Of a stretch of 64,000 nucleotides of DNA, positions 52,750 through 64,000 are shown piece by piece. Location of the stretch: the NCBI GenBank assembly GCA_001464695.1, contig LNDQ01000156.1, positions 62,001-126,000 on the forward strand, read 5' to 3'. Under the pieces are notes generated by a model. It was not told where the DNA came from and did no database searches. It saw only the letters and a program-made list of their open reading frames with translations. The position numbers and the translations under genes were made by a program. Origin of the DNA: Betaproteobacteria bacterium Ga0077523 (GTDB taxonomy: Bacteria; Pseudomonadota; Gammaproteobacteria; Burkholderiales; Ga0077523). Positions within the stretch are counted from its first letter, which is position 1, and the number at the start of each line of letters is the position of its first letter.

Positions 52750-53232
52750 TCAGGCCTTGCCGTAGCTCGCCGAGGAACGCGGCGCCGGCGCTTGACTCGC
52801 CTGGGCCGCCGGGGCGTCGACGGCAGCCGATCGGCTCGCCTGCATAGTGATCAGCGACTCCCACGCCCCCTTCAGCTCGCGCAGCAGGCGCGTTACTTCG
52901 TCCAGGATCTCCACGCTGTTGTGGAGGTTCGCGAGCATGAGCTGCCGCGTCATGTATTCGTACAGCGCCTGCAGATTGGCGGCGATCTCGCCGCCGGCCA
53001 CGGGGTCGAGTGCTGCGAGCAGCCCCTCCTCGATGATGCCGATGGCCTTCGACAGCTGCGCCCCCTTGGCGGCGTAGTCCTTGCGCAGCATCTCGCTGCG
53101 GGCGATTCCGATCGCCTTGATCGCGCCGTCGTAGAGCATCACGACCAGCGCTTCCGGGCTGGCACCCAGGACCCCGACCTCGACGTCCACTTTGGCATAC
53201 GAGCTGGCGGCGCGATCTATGGTTGCGTTCAT
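52750..53232 (-). CDS. fliS: Flagellin chaperone FliS
   Basis: 160 residues from the ATG that opens MNATIDRAASSYAKVDVE. Core helices: SPEALVVMLYDGAIKAIGIA, GEIAANLQALYEYMTRQLM and LDEVTRLLRELKGAWESL, all FliS signatures. The Ala/Pro-rich C-terminal tail of about 25 residues is longer than usual. FliS binds the C-terminal D0 of FliC to prevent cytosolic polymerisation. Confidence 0.94.
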   Translation of the reverse strand: MNATIDRAASSYAKVDVEVGVLGASPEALVVMLYDGAIKAIGIARSEMLRKDYAAKGAQLSKAIGIIEEGLLAALDPVAGGEIAANLQALYEYMTRQLMLANLHNSVEILDEVTRLLRELKGAWESLITMQASRSAAVDAPAAQASQAPAPRSSASYGKA

Positions 53233-53279: not shown

Positions 53280-55280
53280 TCATGAATCCCGGGTGTTGTT
53301 GAGTGCGCCCAGCTGTTGCGTGAGGAAGTTGCTGGTCGCGAGCATGCTGCTCATCATGGTGTCGAGTGCGGTGAACTGGGCCCGGTAGCGGGCCTCGACG
53401 TCGGTCAACCGCCGGTTCAGGGCGGTGCGACGATCCCCCAGATCATCGATCGATCGGTTGATGCCCTCGGTGCGGCTGGTGATTACGCCGGTCGTGGACA
53501 GGATGTTGGTGAGCAGCGCGTCAAGGCGCGAGGCGAACCCGCGTACGACGGTCACGGTGCCGCGGTCGCCCGTGGCTCCGCCAATCACCTCGAGCCGGAT
53601 CCCGGCGAGGCTGCTGCCGGTCGGGCCGCTCAGCACCTGGCCGTTGCCCGTGGCGGGCACGCCGTTGATGGTGCCGGCGACGTCCACACCGATGGTCGTG
53701 ACCGGAGCACCGCCCAGCAGGCCCGCTGCAGCATTGCCGGTGGCCGAGACCTGCGAGGCGCTGCCGTAGCGGTTCGACGTGATCGTCAGGACCCCAGCCG
53801 ATTCGGTCACCGCAACGGTTGCTCCGGCCGCCTGGATATCCGTCGAACCGTTGATGCCCGACTGCACCGCAGTCGCGAGCGCCGCAGCCGTATACGTTCC
53901 GGCGGCGATCGTCACGGTCGTGACCACGCCGTTCACGTTCACAGCGAGCGAGTCGTTGCTGCCCTGGGTGATCGTCAGGTTCGCCGCGGCAGACCCAACC
54001 ACGTTGCCCTGGGTGGCGAGAGCGCTCACGTTGAGCGCGTAGCGGCCCGGTGTGCTGTTGGCCGTCGCGCCCAGGAAACTCACCAGGCTGTCGGTCGTCT
54101 TGCCGGTCGCCGTGAACGCGCCCGCGAGGTCGTCGGCCGCGGTGCCGGCCATGGCCGTCTGGAGCTTGGCCGTGTCGAGAGCGAGGCTGCCGTCGCGCTG
54201 GAAGCTGATGCCGAGCTGCGAGAGGTTCGAAATGGCCAGGCCGGCGCCGAGGCTGTCACCCAGGACGCCGCGCAGCTGTGCCTGGATGCTGCGGACCGCG
54301 AAATCGCCATTGAGCGGCCCCGCTTGCCGGGTTTCGGCGTTGAAGCTCGCAAGCTGGTCGAGGGTGGCGTCGACGTCGTTGTAGGCCTTCACCATGGCGG
54401 CTACGGCGGTCTGGATCGACGCCGTGTCCCGGGCAACGGTCAGCGTGCTGGTGCCCACCTTGGCGAGCGTCAGATTGACCCCTTGCAGCGCCGTCGATAC
54501 GGTGTTCGTCCGGCTCGTGAGAGCGAGACCGTTCACGGTGAAGGCGGCGTCCTGGGCCGCCAGCGTCTGGGTCAGGTTCTGGGTACCGGCCGGGTCGTAT
54601 GACAGCAGGTTCGAGATGGCGGCTTCGCCGGTCACCGAGACCTTCATGCTGACGTTGGCGCCGGTCGAAGCCGACTGGAGCACCAGCCGGTATGGCGTCG
54701 CACTGCCGTCACCGACGATGCTCGCCGTCACGCCGACATTCGCGTTGTTGATCGCGTCCTTGATGCCGGCCAGCGAGTTGTTCTCGGCGCTGATCGTCAC
54801 CGAGCCGCTCGCCTGGGTGCCGTCCTGGGTGAAGGTCGCGCCGGTGTATACCCCGTTGGTCAGCGTGCCGCCGGTGATGGTCCCGAACTGGAAGCTGATC
54901 GTGGTGCTGGCGCCTGCCCCGATGGCGGCGGATACGCTCGCCTGGCCCGCAGCAACCACAGCTTGGCTCTGCGCGAGCTGCGAGACGTTGAGGGAGAAGC
55001 TGCCGACACTGGCGATGGACGTGGCGGTCGCGGTGGCGATACCCATGTCCGAGCTGGTCACCGTCCGCGCCTGGAAGCGCGAAACGCTGTTGAGCGCTGC
55101 CACCGACGTCTGGAACGCCGACAGGGTGCCCTTCAGGTTGCCGTAGGCCGACAACTGCGCCTGGAAGCTCGCTTCCTTGGTGTCGAGGGCCAGCAATGGC
55201 TGACGCTCGATGGACATCAACTGCGTGACGATCGAGTTGATGTCGAGGTTGGAGCCGATACCGGGGGATGAAATGGCCAT
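53280..55280 (-). CDS. fliD: Flagellar filament cap protein FliD
   Basis: 666 residues. N-terminal coiled-coil start ISSPGIGSNLDINSIVTQL and SIERQPLLALDTKEASFQAQLSAYGNLKG are FliD hallmarks; C-terminal GINRSIDDLGDRRTALNRRLTDVEARYRAQFTALDTMMSSM with a final LGALNN closes the hairpin. The centre holds repeated Ser/Thr/Gly-rich D2-D4 modules with flagellin-hook-like segments (TIAAGTYTAAALATAVQSGI). The sigma-28-like promoter lies 35 bases upstream. It exports last and caps the filament. Confidence 0.96.
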   Translation of the reverse strand: MAISSPGIGSNLDINSIVTQLMSIERQPLLALDTKEASFQAQLSAYGNLKGTLSAFQTSVAALNSVSRFQARTVTSSDMGIATATATSIASVGSFSLNVSQLAQSQAVVAAGQASVSAAIGAGASTTISFQFGTITGGTLTNGVYTGATFTQDGTQASGSVTISAENNSLAGIKDAINNANVGVTASIVGDGSATPYRLVLQSASTGANVSMKVSVTGEAAISNLLSYDPAGTQNLTQTLAAQDAAFTVNGLALTSRTNTVSTALQGVNLTLAKVGTSTLTVARDTASIQTAVAAMVKAYNDVDATLDQLASFNAETRQAGPLNGDFAVRSIQAQLRGVLGDSLGAGLAISNLSQLGISFQRDGSLALDTAKLQTAMAGTAADDLAGAFTATGKTTDSLVSFLGATANSTPGRYALNVSALATQGNVVGSAAANLTITQGSNDSLAVNVNGVVTTVTIAAGTYTAAALATAVQSGINGSTDIQAAGATVAVTESAGVLTITSNRYGSASQVSATGNAAAGLLGGAPVTTIGVDVAGTINGVPATGNGQVLSGPTGSSLAGIRLEVIGGATGDRGTVTVVRGFASRLDALLTNILSTTGVITSRTEGINRSIDDLGDRRTALNRRLTDVEARYRAQFTALDTMMSSMLATSNFLTQQLGALNNTRDS

Positions 55281-55825: not shown

Positions 55826-57310
55826 TTAACGAAGCAGCGACAGCACGTTGTTCGGGATCGCGTTCGCCTGCGCCAGGACGGCAGTGCCGGCCTGCTGCAG
55901 GATCTGCGCCCGCGTGAGTGCTGCAGTCTCGGCTGCGAAGTCCGCGTCACGGACCCGGCTGCGCGAGGCACTGAGGTTCTCCGATGTGGTCTGGAGGTTG
56001 GCGATGGTGTTGATGAAGCGGTTCTGAATGGCACCCAGGCTGGCGCGCATGCGGCTTACCTGAGCGAGCGACGCGTCGATGATGTCGATCGCACTGTTGG
56101 CGCCAGCAACCGTCGAGATGTCCACCGACGACAGCAACGAGGCAGTCGACGCGGTCGTGGTCGTGCCGGCGACAATGACGTCGGTACCAGCGCTCGACAC
56201 CGCCGTGAAGCCCTGGTCGGCGTTCAGCGTGACCTCACCCCCGATACGGGTGCTGTCGTTGCCGCCGCTGGTCAGCGCTTCGTTGGTCGCCGCCGTGGCC
56301 GAGCCATCCACCTGGATGGTGCCGCCGGCGGAGTTGGTGAAGCCCTCGATCGTGACGTCCTTGCCTTCCGCCTGCTTCACGACAACCGAGGTCTTGTCGG
56401 CCGACAGCGTCGCCGTCACACCGGTCTTGCCGCTCACGTCGTTGATCGCCGCGGCGAGTGCCGTCAGATCGCTCGTCGTGACCTGCGCGGAGATGGCGGT
56501 TGCGGTACCGCCGCCGTTGATGGTGAAGCTGAGCGTACCCGAAGCCGACAGCGTGCCGATGGTGGCCGAGGTCGTGGCCTTGGCCGCGACACCGGTGCTG
56601 CCGACGATGGCGTTGATCGAAGCGGCGATCGTCGACGCTTGATCGTTCGCGGACACGGAGACCGTCGAGGAGCCCGAAGCGCCGGCGATCGTCAGCGTTT
56701 GCGCGCCGACCCCGTTGCCCGCGGCGGCCGTGTTGGCAGCAGCGGTCACGGTACCGAGACCGTCGTTGTCGGTGGCCGACTGGAGCGCGATCGTGTTGTT
56801 CTTGAGGTCGTTGGCGGTGGCGCCCTGGACCGACACACCGATCGTCTCGTTCGCGTTGGCGCCCACCTGGAACTGCTGGCCCTGGTAGGTGCCGTCGAGG
56901 ATCTTGAGGCCGTTGAACGTGGTCGTGTTGGCGACGCGGTTCACTTCCTGGATCAACTGGTTCACTTCGTCGTTCAGCGCCTTGCGGTCGGTTGCCGAGT
57001 TCGTCGCGTTCGCGGACTGGATCGACAACTCACGGATACGCTGCAGGATTTCGCCGGTCTGGGTGAGCGCGCCTTCGGCCGTCTGCGCAAGCGAGACGCC
57101 GTCATTGGCGTTGCGGCGGGCCTGGTCAAGGCCGCGGATCTGAGTGGTCAGTCGCTCGGAGATCGCGAGACCGGCCGCGTCGTCGCGGGCGGAGTTGATG
57201 CGAAGACCGGAGGACAGACGCTGCAGGGCGGTAGCAAGCGCGCCTTGCGATTGCGTCAGGTTGCGCTGAGCATTCAGCGACGGGATGTTGGTGTTGATGA
57301 TCTGAGTCAT
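55826..57310 (-). CDS. fliC: Flagellin
   Basis: 494 residues. N-terminal D0/D1 [40 protein letters not shown] and [17 protein letters not shown], with the Arg that is part of the TLR5 contact; C-terminal D1/D0 [31 protein letters not shown] and ending NNVLSLLR. The central D2 is about 250 residues, rich in Ser, Thr, Ala and Gly without Cys, with segments [15 protein letters not shown] that resemble flagellin-hook IN modules. Ser/Thr richness makes it a plausible glycosylation substrate. Two sigma-28-like promoters lie upstream, and the sugar operon lies directly beyond. Confidence 0.98.
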
Positions 57311-57570: not shown

Positions 57571-58728
57571 TTACCTCGCCGGGCGGTCCGCGGGCCGGTC
57601 GTCAACGAACGACAAAACGGCCGCCGCGACCGCCTCGATCTGCGCTGCTGCGAGGGTCGGACCCATGGGCAGGCTCAACACTTCCGCCGACAGGCGTTCG
57701 GTACGCGGCAGGCTGCCCTGCGCCCAGCCGCACTGGCGGTAGGCGCCCTGCAGGTGCGGCGGCACCGGGTAGTGGATCACGCTCTGGACGCCGTGGCTGG
57801 CCAGGTGGGCCTGCAGGGCATCGCGCTTGCTCGATCGGGCTACGAAAAGGTGCCATACCGACTCTGCCGACGGTGCATCTGCCGGCACGATGACGCTGGA
57901 GCCCGACAGTGCAGACCGGTAACGGGCCACAGCGCGCCGGCGCGCGGCGTTCCACTCGTCAAGATGGCGCAGCTTGACGCGCAGCAGCGCCGCCTGCAGC
58001 TCGTCGAGGCGACTGTTGACGCCCTGCTCTTCGTGCACGTACTTGCGCGACGATCCGTAGTTGCGCAGCCGCCGGACCCGTTCCGCGAGAGCACGGTCGG
58101 AAGTGACGACAGCCCCACCATCACCGAGCGCCCCCAGGTTCTTGCCTGGATAGAAGCTGAACCCCGCTGCCGTGCCCAGGCTGCCGACGCGCCGGCCACC
58201 GTGGCGTGCACCGTGGGCTTGCGCGGCGTCCTCGATCAGCGCGAGCCCATGGCGTTTCGCGACGGCGGCGAGTGCCACCATGTCTGCGGGCTGTCCGTAC
58301 AGGTGTACCGGCATGATGGCGCGGGTTCGCGGCGTGATGCGCGCCTCGACCCCGCGCGGGTCGATATTGAAACCGCCCTCGACCGGCTCCACCGGCACCG
58401 GCACCGCACCGGCTTCCGACACAGCCAACCAGGTGGCGATGAATGTCATCGAAGGGACGATCACCTCGTCGCCGGGCCCGATGTCCAGCGCCCGCAGGAT
58501 CAGCGTCAGCGCATCCAGACCATTGCCCACGCCGATGCAGTGCTGCACTTCGCAATAGCGCGCGAACTCCTCTTCGAATGCGGCCAGCTCGGCACCCATG
58601 ATGAACTGCCCGCCGGCCAGTACACGCTGCCAGGCGACATCGAGTTCCGACCGGATGGTGGCGTGCAGTCCCTCCACGTCCAGGAAGGGGACGCCGGCGC
58701 GCGGCAACGATGTCGGGCGTGCGCTCAC
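57571..58728 (-). CDS. DegT/DnrJ/EryC1 sugar aminotransferase (FdtB/QdtB type)
   Basis: 385 residues. PLP-dependent enzyme acting on nucleotide-linked keto sugars. Motifs: [10 protein letters not shown]-like [31 protein letters not shown], and the PLP Lys in [20 protein letters not shown]; a later [21 protein letters not shown]. Its partner, an FdtA/QdtA-like ketoisomerase, overlaps its GTG start (GTGA), so it probably aminates dTDP-3-keto-6-deoxyhexose at C3, giving a 3-amino-3,6-dideoxy sugar. rmlA and rmlB are not in the window. It is the last gene of the operon before fliC. Confidence 0.9.
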
Positions 58729-59150
58729 GCTCGCTTGGCCGCTGCTGCCTCGGTGGCCGCCTTGAAATCCGCGTACTCGCGGAAATAGTCGGCCTCGTCG
58801 TAGAACTCCGACGCGAGCACCATGCACACCGATCCGGAGGAGAAGTTGTCGATCTCGCGCCACATCATCGGCGCGATGTAGAGCCCGTAGTACGACCGGT
58901 TCAGGTGATAGCGCCGGGTGCGCGAACCGTCGTCGAGCACGATGTCGAAACTGCCGGACATGGCGATGACGAGCTGGTGCAGCGCCTTGTGGCCGTGGCC
59001 CGCCCGGGTCGCGCCGCCGGGGACGTCGTACAGGTAGTAGACGCGCTTGATGTCGAACGGGATGTGGCGGCCGCTTTCGGCGAAGGTCAGATTGCCCCGC
59101 GGATCGTGGATGATCGGTAGTTCGATGAACCGGCACAGCTCGAGGCCCAT
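58725..59150 (-). CDS. Sugar 3,4-ketoisomerase, FdtA/QdtA (WxcM-like) cupin
   Basis: 141 residues, one cupin domain, the FdtA/QdtA length. [14 protein letters not shown] near the N-terminus, [28 protein letters not shown] with the catalytic His pair, and [26 protein letters not shown]. Family members shift the keto group of dTDP-4-keto-6-deoxyglucose from C4 to C3; the C4 stereochemistry (fucose or quinovose type) cannot be read here. A GGAG lies 9 bases before the ATG. Coupled to the aminotransferase. Confidence 0.92.
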
Positions 59151-59175: not shown

Positions 59176-60042
59176 TTACGGAAGTGCGGACTCGTCCTTG
59201 AAGCGCACGCGCACCAGTCCGTCGCGACAGGCGAGCAAGGCGCTGCGGGTGCCGATCCGGTCGCCGCCGTGCAGCGCGCCGGGCCAGTCCCCCACCACGT
59301 GCTCGGCGGCGACGATGCGGCGGCCCGCGAGCCGCGGCAGCTGGAACGGTTCGAAGATCAGCGAGCGGATGAGATCAACGCAGTGATCCGCGGTCATGGC
59401 GCGCCAGTCGACGATGTCGATGGCGGTGAAATCGATCGATTTGCGATCGTAGTAGGTGGCCGCGTTCGCATCCTGCGGTTGCCGCCGTTCGCGCCCTGCC
59501 AGGACGTCCGGAAGGTTGCGCTTGAACACCTCGTAGCCGTGAGCGTGATACAGGCCGTAGAGGTCGAACGCGGTCGTGAAGGGCGGGACCGCGAAGTGCT
59601 GCTGATCGATGATGTCGCCATCGTCGATGCCAGCCTCGAGCACGTGCAGCGTGACGCCGCTCGCAGCCTCGCCGTTGCGCAGCGGCCACATGCTTGGATA
59701 GCAGCCGCGGTAGCGCGGCAGCGGCGAGAAATGCAGGTTGTAGGCGCGCGCGCCGCCGAGCTGTGCGGGCCGGATGATGCGGTCGTACTGGAGGCTGAAG
59801 AGGACATCGCGCGTGCCCAGCGCCAGTGCCTCCACGCTGTCGACGACGGGTACACCCGACCGTTCGCTCTGCGCGCGCAACGACGGCTCCCAGCGATCGA
59901 CCCCGGGGTCGCTTCGCACCGGGACCACCGCGAGCTCCCACGGCTCGGTGAGCAACGGCAACACATCCGCGAGGTATCCGAGGGCATTGCAGGCGATCGC
60001 GCCCTTCCCGCAGACGGCCACGCGCCGGCGTTCAACCGCCAT
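59176..60042 (-). CDS. Sugar N-formyltransferase (methionyl-tRNA formyltransferase-like)
   Basis: 288 residues. N10-formyltetrahydrofolate-dependent. Catalytic Asn-His in YNLHFSPLPRYRGCYPSMWPL and Asp in LEAGIDDGDIIDQ form the known triad of nucleotide-sugar formyltransferases. The N-terminal VAVCGKGAIACNALGYL is a Rossmann start. In the context of the ketoisomerase and aminotransferase it should N-formylate the 3-amino sugar (as QdtF does), replacing the acetyltransferase seen in Fuc3NAc/Qui3NAc loci. The ATG at 60042 lies 11 bases inside the upstream nucleotidyltransferase gene. Confidence 0.9.
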   Translation of the reverse strand: MAVERRRVAVCGKGAIACNALGYLADVLPLLTEPWELAVVPVRSDPGVDRWEPSLRAQSERSGVPVVDSVEALALGTRDVLFSLQYDRIIRPAQLGGARAYNLHFSPLPRYRGCYPSMWPLRNGEAASGVTLHVLEAGIDDGDIIDQQHFAVPPFTTAFDLYGLYHAHGYEVFKRNLPDVLAGRERRQPQDANAATYYDRKSIDFTAIDIVDWRAMTADHCVDLIRSLIFEPFQLPRLAGRRIVAAEHVVGDWPGALHGGDRIGTRSALLACRDGLVRVRFKDESALP

Positions 60043-60814
60043 GTGGTCCTCCCACCTGGCGCCAGTCGTGGGTCCAGGGACGTGCCGCCGCCAGGGCTTG
60101 TTCGTAGCGCGCGAGATCTTCGACCGAATCCACTTCGCACCAGCCGCCTTCGATGGCCAGCGCGCCGACGCGCTCGTCACGATCGAGCATCAGGCGCAGC
60201 AGGCTCGTCATGTCCAGGCGATCGCGAAGTTCCGGCGGTTGTTCCTGCCAGGCCGTCACGGCACGGCGCCAACCGACGGGCGTGAAGCGGATCAAACCCA
60301 TGTACTGTCCCTGCACCTGATCGAGACTCTGCGGGCGCTCGCCGATGGCGAGCAGCCGACCTTGTTCCTCGAGAAACGTCTCCGCATCGCGCAGCGGGTC
60401 GCCGAACCGGAGCTGCCACAACGGCAGCCAGCAGCGATCATAGGTGATGGTGACATCGTCCTGTGCCGTCAGAAGTCGTTGCACGATGTCCGGACCGTAC
60501 ACGATGTCCGAGTAGGAAACGATGGTCGTGCCGGCCTCCATCCACTCAGCGGCGCACGCGAGTGAGGCGACCATGTTCGTGTCGGCCCAACGCGGGTTGT
60601 GAAAGCACGTGGCAGCGAAGGATTGCAGCAAGTCCGCACGGTAGCCGGTCACGATTGCAATGCGTTGGATCCCCGCCGCCCGCAGCGCCTCGAGTTGCCA
60701 CTCCAGCAGCGGTCGGCCCGCCAGCGGCGTCAGGCACTTCGGCTTGTCGCGGGTGATCTCGCCCAACCGCGAGCCGCGGCCGGCGGCCAGGATGATGGCG
60801 CTGGTCGCCGTCAT
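60032..60814 (-). CDS. LicC-like nucleotidyltransferase, probable CTP:phosphoglutamine cytidylyltransferase (Cj1416-like)
   Basis: 260 residues. N-terminal nucleotide site SAIILAAGRGSRLGEITRDKPKCLTPLAG, then FHNPRWADTNMVASLACAAE (the LicC-like NP...TNMV motif) and VSYSDIVYGPDIVQ with the metal Asp. Size and family match C. jejuni Cj1416, which joins CTP to L-glutamine phosphate. The immediate upstream neighbours are the Cj1417- and Cj1418-like genes in the same order, which is the main basis for the specific call; from sequence alone, phosphocholine or a sugar phosphate could also be the substrate. Confidence 0.82.
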   Translation of the reverse strand: MTATSAIILAAGRGSRLGEITRDKPKCLTPLAGRPLLEWQLEALRAAGIQRIAIVTGYRADLLQSFAATCFHNPRWADTNMVASLACAAEWMEAGTTIVSYSDIVYGPDIVQRLLTAQDDVTITYDRCWLPLWQLRFGDPLRDAETFLEEQGRLLAIGERPQSLDQVQGQYMGLIRFTPVGWRRAVTAWQEQPPELRDRLDMTSLLRLMLDRDERVGALAIEGGWCEVDSVEDLARYEQALAAARPWTHDWRQVGGPHGG

Positions 60815-61452
60815 GCGCCTGCCTCGCGCGCTTCGAGCCCGAACGCATCGCGCAGCAACCGACGGTCGTCCGCGTGGAAGGGAGACTCCCGTTCCGGGTG
60901 CCACATCACCGCCGTCCAGCGTCGCGCCGGGCAGACGAACGCTTCGACGCTCGTGTCCGGAGCGTAGGCGAGTGGTGCGATGCCTGACGGAACCGCCGCG
61001 CTCGGCAAACCCCAGTGGTGGTAGGAGTTCACGTCGGGAGCACCAAGGGAGGTGCCGCCCGGACGCGTCAGTGCGTGGCGCTGCGCGACGTGGCCTTCCA
61101 CCGGTACCAGCGTGCCCCCGAGCGTGTCCCACATGAGCTGGGCGCCGCGACAGACGCCGAATACCGGCAGATCCCGGCGCCGGCACGCGTCCAGCAGCGC
61201 GCGCTCGGTCTGGTCGCGGCGCGGGCTCGAGCCGATGTCTTCGCCGCCGGTCAGGATCAGGGCGTTCAAGCCGAACGTTGCAAACCCCTGCGCGGCGCCC
61301 TCCGCACCGTTGGGCAAGGGTATCCACACGCCTTCCGGCAGCGCCCAGGCGAGGAACTCGCCCCACGAGGCCGCCAGGGCGTCGCGCAACTCGCCGGTAC
61401 CTGGATTGCGCATCTCGCGCATGGTCACGCCGATGCGAAGCGGCGGGTTCAT
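60811..61452 (-). CDS. Class I glutamine amidotransferase-like hydrolase, probable gamma-glutamyl-CDP-amidate hydrolase (Cj1417-like)
   Basis: 213 residues, a lone peptidase C26-type domain. LILTGGEDIGSSPR, nucleophile Cys in VFGVCRGAQLMWD, and His-Glu in AVMWHPERESPF complete the triad. No synthase partner domain is attached, as in Cj1417, which splits CDP-glutamine to glutamate and cytidine diphosphoramidate. Starts and stops overlap both neighbours by 4 bases (ATGA). A gamma-glutamyl-GABA-like hydrolase role is the alternative if context is ignored. Confidence 0.84.
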   Translation of the reverse strand: MNPPLRIGVTMREMRNPGTGELRDALAASWGEFLAWALPEGVWIPLPNGAEGAAQGFATFGLNALILTGGEDIGSSPRRDQTERALLDACRRRDLPVFGVCRGAQLMWDTLGGTLVPVEGHVAQRHALTRPGGTSLGAPDVNSYHHWGLPSAAVPSGIAPLAYAPDTSVEAFVCPARRWTAVMWHPERESPFHADDRRLLRDAFGLEAREAGA

Positions 61453-63878
61453 GCGGCTACCAGTTCGCGCGTAGGACGAAGCACGCGGGCTGCGGCGTTG
61501 AGTTCGGCCATGCCCGAGGACAGCAGGCGCGCATAGGTCTGTTCGCCGCAGCCGATCGCGGCCGGCAGACCCAGTTCGGCACACCGGATCGCCATGTGCG
61601 AGTTGGCTCCGCCGAACTTGGTCACCAGGGCCTGGATGCCACGCGTGAACACCCAGTCGAAACCGGGATCGGCATTCTCGATGCACACGATGCAGCCGAA
61701 CAGGTTCACGCCGCCGCCGCTATGGGCGTCGAGCGCCACGACCGGGCCGTTCGCGTGGCCGGTGCCGACGAAGTTCGGCTCGCTGCGATGGATCGTCGCG
61801 ACGTAGATGTCGCGCACGTCGCGCACGATGTGGCTCAGCCGGAACGCGTGCGCTTCCCGGTGGCGTTGCCGTCCTTCCTCCGCCAGCGCCAGGAAATGCC
61901 GGTCGGCGTAGTCGATGACCGGGTCGGTGCAGGTGCGCTCCAGCGCAGCCCAGTCGACGAACGACAGGTCGTCGCGGCTGAGACCCTGGGCTTCACCCCA
62001 GTTCGCCAGCGCTTCGAGCGCATCGGACAGGCACCGGGTGAACACGAACTTCGCGTGTTCGCGGCCGGCGATGGCGCGTTGCGCGTAGACGAGCAGCCCC
62101 GCGGGCGTGATGCCGTCGAATCCGGTCTCGGCGAGCAGCGCACCGAGATCGCGCCGTTCCCGGGGGCGCAACACGAAGCGCTCCGCGGGTGCATGGGCGG
62201 CGAGCGGCAGTGCCGCCGAGAAGAGATCGTCGCGCGCATCGTAGCGCGGCGAGGTGATGTCGTAGGTGCCCGGGCGCAGGTGGCCGTAGCGGCCCAGGAA
62301 TGCGGTGCGTGGTGCCTGGCCGGCACACACGGCGGCATGATCGCGCAGCATGCCGCTCGTGACCGTGACGACGGCGCGGCGAAAGGCGGACACCCGCTCG
62401 GGTGCCAGTGCGCCGCGCCGCTGTGCCGACCGCACCAGCGCTTCGGCGACGAACGCATGCCGCGCGATGACGGCGAATGCGAACGTGCCGCTGCGCGCCC
62501 CTTCGCGTACCAGGCGCACCGCCCGCCTCAATGCCTCGAAGGCCTCGGGGGTCCGGCCGGTGTCGACGGGCGCGCCGGCGACGGATTCCAGCCCCGCCAC
62601 CAGGTGTTCGGCAGTGGCCAGCGATCCACGATCGCTCTCATGGAGGAACCCCCGGGTGAGCTGCGTGAGGCGGGCCTGGTAGTCGCTGCGTGCCCGGGGC
62701 CGCAACAAGCCGGCGTAGCGCTGGCGGAAGCTGCGGTCGAAATCGAAGTCGAGGCAGGTGTGCGCGATCTCGAACTCGACCTTGTCGTGCAGTTCGGGCT
62801 GTGCATCGAGGCGATCGAGCCACGCATTCACCAGCGCCTCGCCCGTAGCCGGATCGATGCCCTCTGGCAGGAAGGAATTGAAGCTCGCCCGCACGTCCAC
62901 ATACGGGTGGCTGTTGACCACCACCATCAACTCTTCCGGCGGCAGGCGCCGGTAACCCATCGCGGCACGCGCCTCGCGCCAGACGTCGCGCGTCACCAGT
63001 TCGCGATAGAGCGACGCCGCCAGCGGGCGCGGCGTGGTGCCGATGATCTCGGCCGGATTCCAATCGGGCATGACGGCGAGTATGGTCCGCTGGCCGTAGA
63101 GCCCGGGTCGAGGCGCACTGCATTCGCGCACGAAATTCTCGACGAAGACCAGTTGGCGCGCCACGCGGCGCTCCGTTACCGGATGCCAGGTCCGGGTGGA
63201 GGCGATGCGCCGAACCTGCAGGAGTACCAGCGTGCCGTCGCGCGTGAGGGCGAATTCGATGTCCAGCGGTACCTCGCCGCACAGGCGCTCCAGTTCGCGC
63301 GCGAGTGCCAGGAATCGCGCTACGCGCGGCGACTGAATGAATTCGGGCACTGCGTGGCGATAGACGCGCAGTGCCTTGTGTACGCCCCGTCCTGCCGTCA
63401 CTGCGTCGGTGCGGCCGGTTTCGTCGTCGAAGTTGATGACGTAGTACGGGGCACCATGGACCAGGTCGTGGGTGAGGATGACACCGCTCACGGCGACATC
63501 GGCGAGCATCGGTTGCACCAGGATCTGGTCGCGGGGATCGCCGGTGAGAGAGGCGATGACCCGATCGACGGCAGTGCCGACGGTGGCTTCGTCGCCCCCC
63601 GGCACACCCAGGACGCTCTCGAAGGCGCCGGCGAGGGACCGCTGCGCACCGTCCTCGGCGAGCGCGCTGGAGCGCACGGCGAGTGCCGTGTGACCGAGGC
63701 GACCGGCGATCCGCTGCAGGCAGCGGCGACGATCGCGCCGCCATTGCTCGACCGTGAAGTGGATGAGGTCGAGCACACGCGCTGATCGCAAGTGCGGTGC
63801 GACCCGTTGCAGCGTCTCGGCCTTGGTACCGAACTGCAGCGGCGTGCGCGGCTTCCGCGCCTTGCGCTCAGCGGTCAT
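61449..63878 (-). CDS. PEP-synthase-like kinase, probable L-glutamine kinase (Cj1418-like)
   Basis: 809 residues from the ATG before TAERKARKPR, overlapping the upstream gene by 11 bases. N-terminal PPDK/PPS ATP-binding domain (LAVRSSALAEDGAQRSLAG near 70-90; DIEFALTRDGTLVLLQVRRI closes it), a large middle region without known motif, and a C-terminal swivelling phosphohistidine domain IQALVTKFGGANSHMAIRCAELGLPAAIG with the His. PPS proper has a third, PEP-binding TIM barrel, absent here. That is the layout of Cj1418, which makes L-glutamine phosphate from ATP. Full-length, and followed at once by the Cj1417- and Cj1416-type genes. Confidence 0.85.
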   Translation of the reverse strand: MTAERKARKPRTPLQFGTKAETLQRVAPHLRSARVLDLIHFTVEQWRRDRRRCLQRIAGRLGHTALAVRSSALAEDGAQRSLAGAFESVLGVPGGDEATVGTAVDRVIASLTGDPRDQILVQPMLADVAVSGVILTHDLVHGAPYYVINFDDETGRTDAVTAGRGVHKALRVYRHAVPEFIQSPRVARFLALARELERLCGEVPLDIEFALTRDGTLVLLQVRRIASTRTWHPVTERRVARQLVFVENFVRECSAPRPGLYGQRTILAVMPDWNPAEIIGTTPRPLAASLYRELVTRDVWREARAAMGYRRLPPEELMVVVNSHPYVDVRASFNSFLPEGIDPATGEALVNAWLDRLDAQPELHDKVEFEIAHTCLDFDFDRSFRQRYAGLLRPRARSDYQARLTQLTRGFLHESDRGSLATAEHLVAGLESVAGAPVDTGRTPEAFEALRRAVRLVREGARSGTFAFAVIARHAFVAEALVRSAQRRGALAPERVSAFRRAVVTVTSGMLRDHAAVCAGQAPRTAFLGRYGHLRPGTYDITSPRYDARDDLFSAALPLAAHAPAERFVLRPRERRDLGALLAETGFDGITPAGLLVYAQRAIAGREHAKFVFTRCLSDALEALANWGEAQGLSRDDLSFVDWAALERTCTDPVIDYADRHFLALAEEGRQRHREAHAFRLSHIVRDVRDIYVATIHRSEPNFVGTGHANGPVVALDAHSGGGVNLFGCIVCIENADPGFDWVFTRGIQALVTKFGGANSHMAIRCAELGLPAAIGCGEQTYARLLSSGMAELNAAARVLRPTRELVAA

Positions 63879-64000
63879 AAGCGTAGTGCTGCCGCGCCTC
63901 GGCAAGATCGAAAGGTGCTGTCGCCGTGATCACGGGTCGTTCGCGTCGTCGCAGGATGACGAACAGCTTGTCGACGTCGTGGAACGGTACGAAGGCCGGT
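63868..64000 (-). CDS. Unidentified gene, C-terminal 43 residues
   Basis: Cut by the right edge. The minus-strand frame reads PAFVPFHDVDKLFVILRRRE, RPVITATAPFDLAEARQHYA, then YDR and TGA at 63868-63870. Codon use is like its neighbours, and it overlaps the kinase start by 11 bases, so it is a genuine member of the operon. Its family is not recognisable from this fragment; candidates by context are a CDP-amidate kinase, a transferase or a methyltransferase. Confidence 0.7.
   Translation of the reverse strand, partial: PAFVPFHDVDKLFVILRRRERPVITATAPFDLAEARQHYAYDR

Follow-up and report, generated by a model that had tools for sequence, protein, structure and literature searches.

Can a betaproteobacterium assemble the activated phosphoramidate known from Campylobacter jejuni, and if so, where does it put it? 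The question is raised by a 64,000-nucleotide stretch of the draft genome of Betaproteobacteria bacterium Ga0077523 (contig LNDQ01000156.1, positions 62,001 to 126,000, or C156:62001-126000; hereafter the window), near one end of which lie three overlapping genes. A preliminary description had assigned them to the families of C. jejuni Cj1418, Cj1417 and Cj1416, the makers of cytidine diphosphoramidate (CDP-amidate). As judged from sequence, the assignment to CDP-amidate biosynthesis is well supported, and a single operon probably both makes activated phosphoramidate and uses it, likely on a flagellin glycan. The host draft amounts to 4.7 Mb and is 87% complete, and absences from it are weak evidence. 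The operon runs on into the next stretch of the contig (L004), in which position p corresponds to window position p+63000.

The three core genes

The core consists of the following genes.

61449-63878, minus strand: L-glutamine kinase-like protein (the Cj1418 role), 809 amino acids; PPDK_N 50.7 bits, PEP-utilizers 43.6 bits, PRK05849/NF004508 849.8 bits (cut-off 501)
60811-61452, minus strand: gamma-glutamyl-CDP-amidate hydrolase-like class I/C26 amidotransferase (the Cj1417 role), 213 amino acids; Peptidase_C26 and NF045546
60032-60814, minus strand: CTP:phosphoglutamine cytidylyltransferase-like protein (the Cj1416 role), 260 amino acids; NTP_transf_3 82.8 bits, related to LicC (1jyk)

All three reading frames are free of internal stops, and the kinase and hydrolase genes, like the hydrolase and cytidylyltransferase genes, overlap by 4 bases, so the positions and overlaps first described were correct. 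The domain make-up held up as well in Pfam and structure searches. The kinase-like protein has a PPDK-type ATP domain, a long middle domain and a swivelling His domain, and the Pfam scan lists no phosphoenolpyruvate (PEP) barrel family in it; its histidine H761, in GGANSHMAIR, is the same in all 15 aligned proteins. Among NCBIfam models, PRK05849 far outscores PEP synthase (47 bits) and rifamycin phosphotransferase (38.5 bits), and the alternative of a rifampin-phosphotransferase-like enzyme thereby fails. The solved structures related to the kinase are distant only, namely PEP synthases. The hydrolase has NF045546 (GCDPHdlase) as its top NCBIfam model and, aligned to solved relatives, carries the motifs GVCRGAQ and MWHPE. 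The nearest solved relative of the cytidylyltransferase is LicC (1jyk, E 1.1e-12), and no dedicated phosphoglutamine cytidylyltransferase model appears among the 25 of 45 NCBIfam matches listed.

Co-occurrence and gene order

Kinase, hydrolase and TagF-like genes were surveyed in 398 Pseudomonadota genomes, host included, which we treat as one sample because size and handles agree, and the kinase and hydrolase also in 14 control genomes. The PRK05849 kinase model matches 15 of the 398, all above its cut-off (one only when two pieces are summed), and none of the 14 controls. At a preset E<=1e-18 the hydrolase model matches 14 of the 398, and all 14 fall within the 15 kinase-positive genomes. 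The hypergeometric probability of this overlap is 6.6e-25, treating the genomes as independent, which they are not. The one kinase-positive genome with no hydrolase match (G415) is that with the two-piece kinase match; among the controls, Lactococcus lactis is the one genome that matches the hydrolase model.

A wider scan of the GTDB species collection found at least 549 stretches encoding kinase relatives, and the 80 named loci taken from it are the best of the 549. Gene order was profiled in 100 loci, with profiles seeded by proteins of the window and contig. Flank lengths vary: 83 of the 100 extend 2.5 kb or more beyond the kinase on its downstream side and 60 reach 5.5 kb or more in each direction, and loci with shorter flanks are uncounted. 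We left out L037, which covers the same region as L101, and the phage record L125; other duplicates, between unnamed and named genomes, are possible. The loci scanned are the best-scoring kinase relatives, so the counts lean towards operons like that of the host. The kinase, hydrolase and cytidylyltransferase genes lie in that order, on one strand and within 3.5 kb, in 63 of the 83. Among the 60 loci with long flanks, a hydrolase gene accompanies the kinase in 55, a cytidylyltransferase in 55, an APS-kinase-like gene (adenosine 5'-phosphosulfate kinase; apsk) in 49, and the genes here called ft2, u185 and TagF-like in 28, 27 and 16, respectively. The APS-kinase-like gene is present in 27 of the 28 ft2 loci, and the order TagF-apsk-u185-ft2-kinase is kept in 15 of the 16 TagF loci, which include Methylotenera, Methylophaga, Sedimenticola, Alteromonas and Pseudomonas.

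Several results weigh against a CDP-amidate module. The hydrolase scores 100.5 bits against its model and misses the curated cut-off of 250, which is reached in none of the 398 genomes. In two of the 14 co-occurring genomes (G307 and G363) kinase and hydrolase are on separate contigs, and in 5 of the 60 long-flank loci no hydrolase lies nearby. Because of the missed cut-off, and because the C. jejuni proteins were compared by family only, membership as a characterised orthologue is not proven. The proposal of a CDP-amidate module is supported by its family matches, the near-exclusive kinase-hydrolase co-occurrence and the APS-kinase-like fourth gene.

The operon and its flagellin setting

The genes around the core extend the operon on both sides.

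L004:3897-8699, upstream of the kinase, same operon: 1600-amino-acid protein with tetratricopeptide repeats (TPRs), a GT41-like part, Glyco_transf_61 (residues 975-1160) and Glyphos_transf/TagF (1378-1495)
L004:3379-3903, upstream of the kinase, same operon: APS-kinase-like protein (the Cj1415 role); best NCBIfam model PRK05541, 147.8 bits (cut-off 127)
L004:2825-3382, upstream of the kinase, same operon: u185, a helical protein matching no family
L004:2079-2825, upstream of the kinase, same operon: ft2, formyltransferase-like, with an HxH motif
63868-64000 in the window and on to 65082 (L004:868-2082), minus strand: S-adenosylmethionine (SAM) methyltransferase, 404 amino acids, candidate phosphoramidate O-methyltransferase; Methyltransf_25 36.8 bits
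59176-60042, minus strand: ft1, sugar N-formyltransferase-like, 288 amino acids; Formyl_trans_N 45.9 bits, PRK06988 94.7 bits (cut-off 316, not reached)
58725-59150, minus strand: FdtA-type protein of the thymidine diphosphate (dTDP)-6-deoxyhexos-4-ulose ketoisomerase family, 141 amino acids; PF05523 184.3 bits (cut-off 23)
57571-58728, minus strand: FdtB-type DegT aminotransferase, 385 amino acids; PF01041 392.9 bits; GTG start and a 4-base overlap with FdtA
55826-57310, minus strand: flagellin, 494 amino acids, the presumed acceptor; Flagellin_N 158.9 bits, Flagellin_C 90.9 bits

From the 1600-amino-acid protein to FdtB the operon comprises 11 successive genes, with overlaps of 1-11 bases at nine of the ten junctions and one 25-base gap. 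Neighbours among the five genes upstream of the kinase overlap by 1-11 bases, the methyltransferase 3' end runs 11 bases into the start of the kinase gene, and ft1 overlaps the cytidylyltransferase gene by 11 bases. The APS-kinase-like gene is the single match to PRK05541 in the host genome at E<=1e-5, an assignment that holds at the family level. The host genome also encodes a dTDP-glucose dehydratase, and flagellin is followed by fliD (53280-55280) and then fliS (stop at 52750). A second TPR-GT41 (SPINDLY/OGT-like) gene, a candidate flagellin O-glycosyltransferase, lies just upstream of the operon (L004:8869-10878).

The comparison with C. jejuni had carried with it a capsule-type setting, which is not borne out here. 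Because ft1, FdtA, FdtB and flagellin lie downstream, we regard the region as a flagellin-linked glycosylation island and not a capsule locus.

A different SAM methyltransferase recurs at other loci. It has a WDYTxLAxAY-like start, differs from the methyltransferase of the host operon, and adjoins the cytidylyltransferase or APS-kinase-like gene (L068:6676-7605, L029:5423-6214, L033:11849-12628 and L057:13770-14687; two of the four were scanned for family).

The TagF-like domain and the proposed transfer step

How might the phosphoramidate reach a sugar? The C-terminal part of the 1600-amino-acid protein matches PF04464 at 43.8 bits (cut-off 22.1), over profile positions 158-280 of 367, and is the only match to that family in the host genome at E<=1e-5. 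A structural model of the domain, built on the copy from L043 with a 20-row alignment, has a mean predicted local distance difference test score (pLDDT) of 93.3. Foldseek places TagF structures first (E 2.6e-12), followed by a capsule-synthesis multienzyme, TarL and an O-GlcNAc transferase homologue (4e-9); in VIA, TagF gives Z 24.1 (root-mean-square deviation 3.4 over 317 aligned residues), and UDP-GlcNAc 2-epimerases give Z of about 20. The domain is stand-alone in some loci, such as L083 and L047, whereas in Methylotenera it is joined to GT61 and in the host to TPR-GT41-GT61; the stand-alone proteins mark it as an independent unit. In G644, too, a PF04464 protein adjoins an APS-kinase-like gene and a kinase. 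According to the accessible part of PMC11924219, a TagF-like domain of C. jejuni transfers glycerol phosphate from CDP-glycerol onto galactose.

Would the host domain not use CDP-glycerol as well? The best host match to TagD, the glycerol-3-phosphate cytidylyltransferase, scores 34.4 bits against a cut-off of 165.4, in a genome that is 87% complete; at the same threshold 12 of the 14 control genomes match, two of them above the cut-off. CDP-glycerol is thus an unlikely donor, since the operon domain is the sole PF04464 match and no TagD exceeds the cut-off, and a canonical teichoic-acid donor is disfavoured on the same two grounds.

Other observations count against assigning the transfer to this domain. 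The TagF profile matches five of the 398 genomes, and four of the five are kinase-negative, though these score 88-180 bits versus 470 for the host. The same profile finds no match in the 17 unnamed loci L026-L042, and none among PDB sequences at E<=1. Nor is the His-Gly pair of TagF (H444), which we take to be catalytic on the acceptor side, evident in the operon domain, where weak N-terminal alignments have A, V or L before Gly. H444N TagF entries are among the Foldseek matches. The His-Gly of the TagD-linked TagFs (L126 and L127) is not evident in the operon group or in the sister group formed by the other four genomes, and its apparent absence therefore does not separate the two.

Three of the four sister loci were read. 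All are near flagellar genes. In two of them the TagF has a close neighbour resembling glycerol-3-phosphate cytidylyltransferase (122.6 and 128.9 bits, against a cut-off of 165.4); the third shows none. The sister group thus seems to travel with a maker of CDP-glycerol and the operon group with a maker of CDP-amidate. TagF-like genes lie close to glycerol-3-phosphate cytidylyltransferase-like genes in L126, L134 and L135; the last two are near flagellar genes, a setting that hints at glycerol phosphate on flagellin glycans.

Because the TagF profile finds nothing in L026-L042, other transferases must exist. In one of these loci, L034, the module adjoins a PF04464 protein of a different kind, and Vibrio alfacsensis has the kinase, hydrolase and cytidylyltransferase genes followed by a TagF-like member of the CDP-glycerol glycerophosphotransferase family, without apsk. 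In Azospirillum lipoferum the order is APS kinase, methyltransferase, kinase, hydrolase and cytidylyltransferase, followed by a DUF1566 gene and, after it, a sulfotransferase; Agrobacterium vitis has a CDP-alcohol phosphatidyltransferase in place of these. Sulfotransferase-like neighbours occur also at L091, L045 and L113, among the neighbour genes picked by eye for a family check. A sulfotransferase-like enzyme would be a chemically sensible mover, since 3'-phospho-CDP-amidate resembles 3'-phosphoadenosine 5'-phosphosulfate. The operon thus offers a candidate for phosphoramidate transfer in its TagF-like domain, with sulfotransferase-like proteins as alternatives at other loci.

Two additional conserved genes

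The products of ft2 and u185 fall outside the Campylobacter scheme, a further point against the proposed pathway. The formyltransferase family motif is NxH; ft2 has a formyltransferase-like motif, but with HxH. The u185 model is all-helical (pLDDT 91.5), with no Foldseek match at E<=0.001 and a best VIA Z of 10.7, which is uninformative for a helical protein. Given the strong tie of both genes to the APS-kinase-like gene, their products may have a part in modifying or handling activated phosphoramidate. One could imagine that they make an N-substituted, for example N-formyl, phosphoramidate from P-NH2, with the TagF-like domain using CDP-amidate or its 3'-phospho form, in place of CDP-glycerol, to place a phosphoramidate on flagella; we consider this combined scheme speculative and rather improbable. 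Sulfatase-family (PF00884) genes lie beside the APS-kinase/u185/ft2 module in L106 (5066-6955) and L103 (15497-17218).

A proposed pathway and its alternatives

By analogy with the C. jejuni enzymes, the kinase-like protein would act first, as an L-glutamine kinase. The cytidylyltransferase would then join its product to CMP from CTP, giving gamma-glutamyl-CDP-amidate, from which the C26 hydrolase would take off glutamate to leave CDP-amidate; the APS-kinase-like protein would phosphorylate the 3'-hydroxyl. We regard these four steps as highly probable. Synteny and fold lead us to favour, with less assurance, the TagF-like C-terminal domain of the 1600-amino-acid TPR-GT41-GT61 protein as the agent that would move the phosphoramidate from nucleotide to sugar hydroxyl. 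On the same kinds of evidence, capping by the methyltransferase, which would yield O-methyl phosphoramidate, is a tentative step with not quite an even chance of being right. FdtA, FdtB and the formyltransferase would supply a formylated 3-amino-3,6-dideoxyhexose. The glycan acceptor would be the flagellin encoded next door, a target that synteny and fold make reasonably likely.

Perhaps, instead, CDP-amidate is made and the acceptor is the O-antigen of lipopolysaccharide (LPS) or another surface glycan, the flagellin neighbourhood being an insertion site only. Across the 100 loci, with their flanks of varying length, the flagellin profile matches only eight, host included; the V. alfacsensis module sits in a PEP-CTERM/exosortase polysaccharide locus; and a phosphoramide lacking O-methyl is reported from the LPS of Xanthomonas campestris and Shewanella in the accessible part of PMC3907429. 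It is harder to see why, on that account, flagellin should lie near operons with TPR-GT41 or GT61 proteins in the host, L043, L044 (Methylotenera oryzisoli, a cultured methylotroph), L046 and L055, and why the host island should stop directly at fliC. We judge this alternative unlikely, with flagellin remaining the favoured acceptor.

A very improbable proposal is that the cytidylyltransferase and TagF-like domain serve CDP-choline or CDP-glycerol (teichoic-acid-like) chemistry, the kinase being an unrelated PEP-synthase-like enzyme. Public labels point that way (PEP-utilizing enzyme, gamma-glutamyl-gamma-aminobutyrate hydrolase family and phosphocholine cytidylyltransferase family), as does LicC as the nearest solved structure. 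Such chemistry leaves the kinase and amidotransferase unexplained despite their near-perfect co-occurrence, and the host genome has no LicD match and no TagD above cut-off. On these results and the kinase scores given above, we reject interpretations of the three genes as PEP synthase, rifamycin phosphotransferase or phosphocholine genes. A small phosphoramidate metabolite as end product, suggested by an Agrobacterium vitis plasmid (L137) whose three genes have as neighbours a LysE family translocator and a CDP-alcohol phosphatidyltransferase in place of glycosyltransferases, is least probable of all for the host, whose operon carries GT41, GT61, FdtA, FdtB and formyltransferase genes and ends at flagellin. 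L137 itself perhaps makes a phosphoramidate lipid, or a small phosphorus-nitrogen (P-N) molecule that is secreted.

Distribution across bacteria

The preliminary description held that such enzymes would be notable outside the epsilonproteobacteria. This fits the open literature, in which the glutamine kinase is termed 'C. jejuni-specific' (PMC9561416, in its accessible part), and a search of that literature, with subscription papers outside its scope, found no account of CDP-amidate pathway genes outside Campylobacter. The genomes tell otherwise. The best 80 of the 549 kinase-relative loci come from Pseudomonadota, Verrucomicrobia, Desulfovibrio, Planctomycetota, Acidobacteria, Omnitrophota, cyanobacteria and others, and because relatives occur in so many phyla the 'C. 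jejuni-specific' label is contradicted at the family level.

Within the host's own lineage the kinase is scarce: two of 100 genomes in the order and two of 274 in the class (by protein search) have it, the host counted in both, and both same-genus genomes searched lack it. So patchy a distribution suggests that the gene has spread horizontally. The same island, with a kinase 87% identical, is present at the nearest locus, L043, in an independent metagenome-assembled genome named Burkholderiales; this speaks for a Burkholderiales host and makes an assembly artefact less likely. Kinase relatives are found on 14 plasmid records, all below 60% identity, and a megablast search of plasmids with the L043 island yielded short matches only. 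One plasmid relative, in a Cupriavidus taiwanensis isolate from a Mimosa nodule (L136), lies in the neighbourhood of an aminotransferase and a thiamine-diphosphate enzyme, and the annotation shows neither hydrolase nor cytidylyltransferase beside it; a match on a Microvirga lotononidis plasmid is related to it. A viral origin was considered and rejected, as none of 13 pattern matches in viral contigs was a relative; a 9.5-kb 'UNVERIFIED', unannotated 'Bacteriophage sp.' record from human faeces encodes a 32% kinase relative and is perhaps bacterial DNA.

Phosphoramidate decoration of surfaces is probably far commoner than thought. If this is right, P-N chemistry on surface glycans would be a widespread bacterial trait, found on flagella as well, and not a Campylobacter speciality, and genes that now carry the three public labels cited above would be renamed.

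Comparison with known systems

Each step of the Cj1415-Cj1418 pathway has reportedly been assigned to its enzyme by Taylor et al. The host operon resembles that O-methyl phosphoramidate (MeOPN) system in having the same four enzyme kinds in one cluster, a likeness by family and not by aligned sequences. It differs in its place within a flagellin island instead of a capsule locus, in its TagF-like candidate transferase, and in the extra conserved ft2 and u185. In C. jejuni the four enzymes lead to CDP-phosphoramidate 3'-phosphate (PMC11800397, accessible part). A C. jejuni phage reportedly recognises the MeOPN group (PMC3232882, by its title), and such recognition could hold for other bearers of phosphoramidate.

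The LPS phosphoramides of X. campestris and Shewanella sp. MR-4 sit, like the proposed flagellin decoration, on a surface glycan of Gram-negative bacteria other than Campylobacter; there the chemistry is known, whereas the accessible part of PMC3907429 names no genes. TagF and TarL, finally, share with the operon domain a fold, TagF being the top structural match, and the PF04464 family, which the domain matches above cut-off. The domain departs from them in being encoded with CDP-amidate genes, in a genome with no TagD over cut-off, and in its lack of an evident His-Gly.

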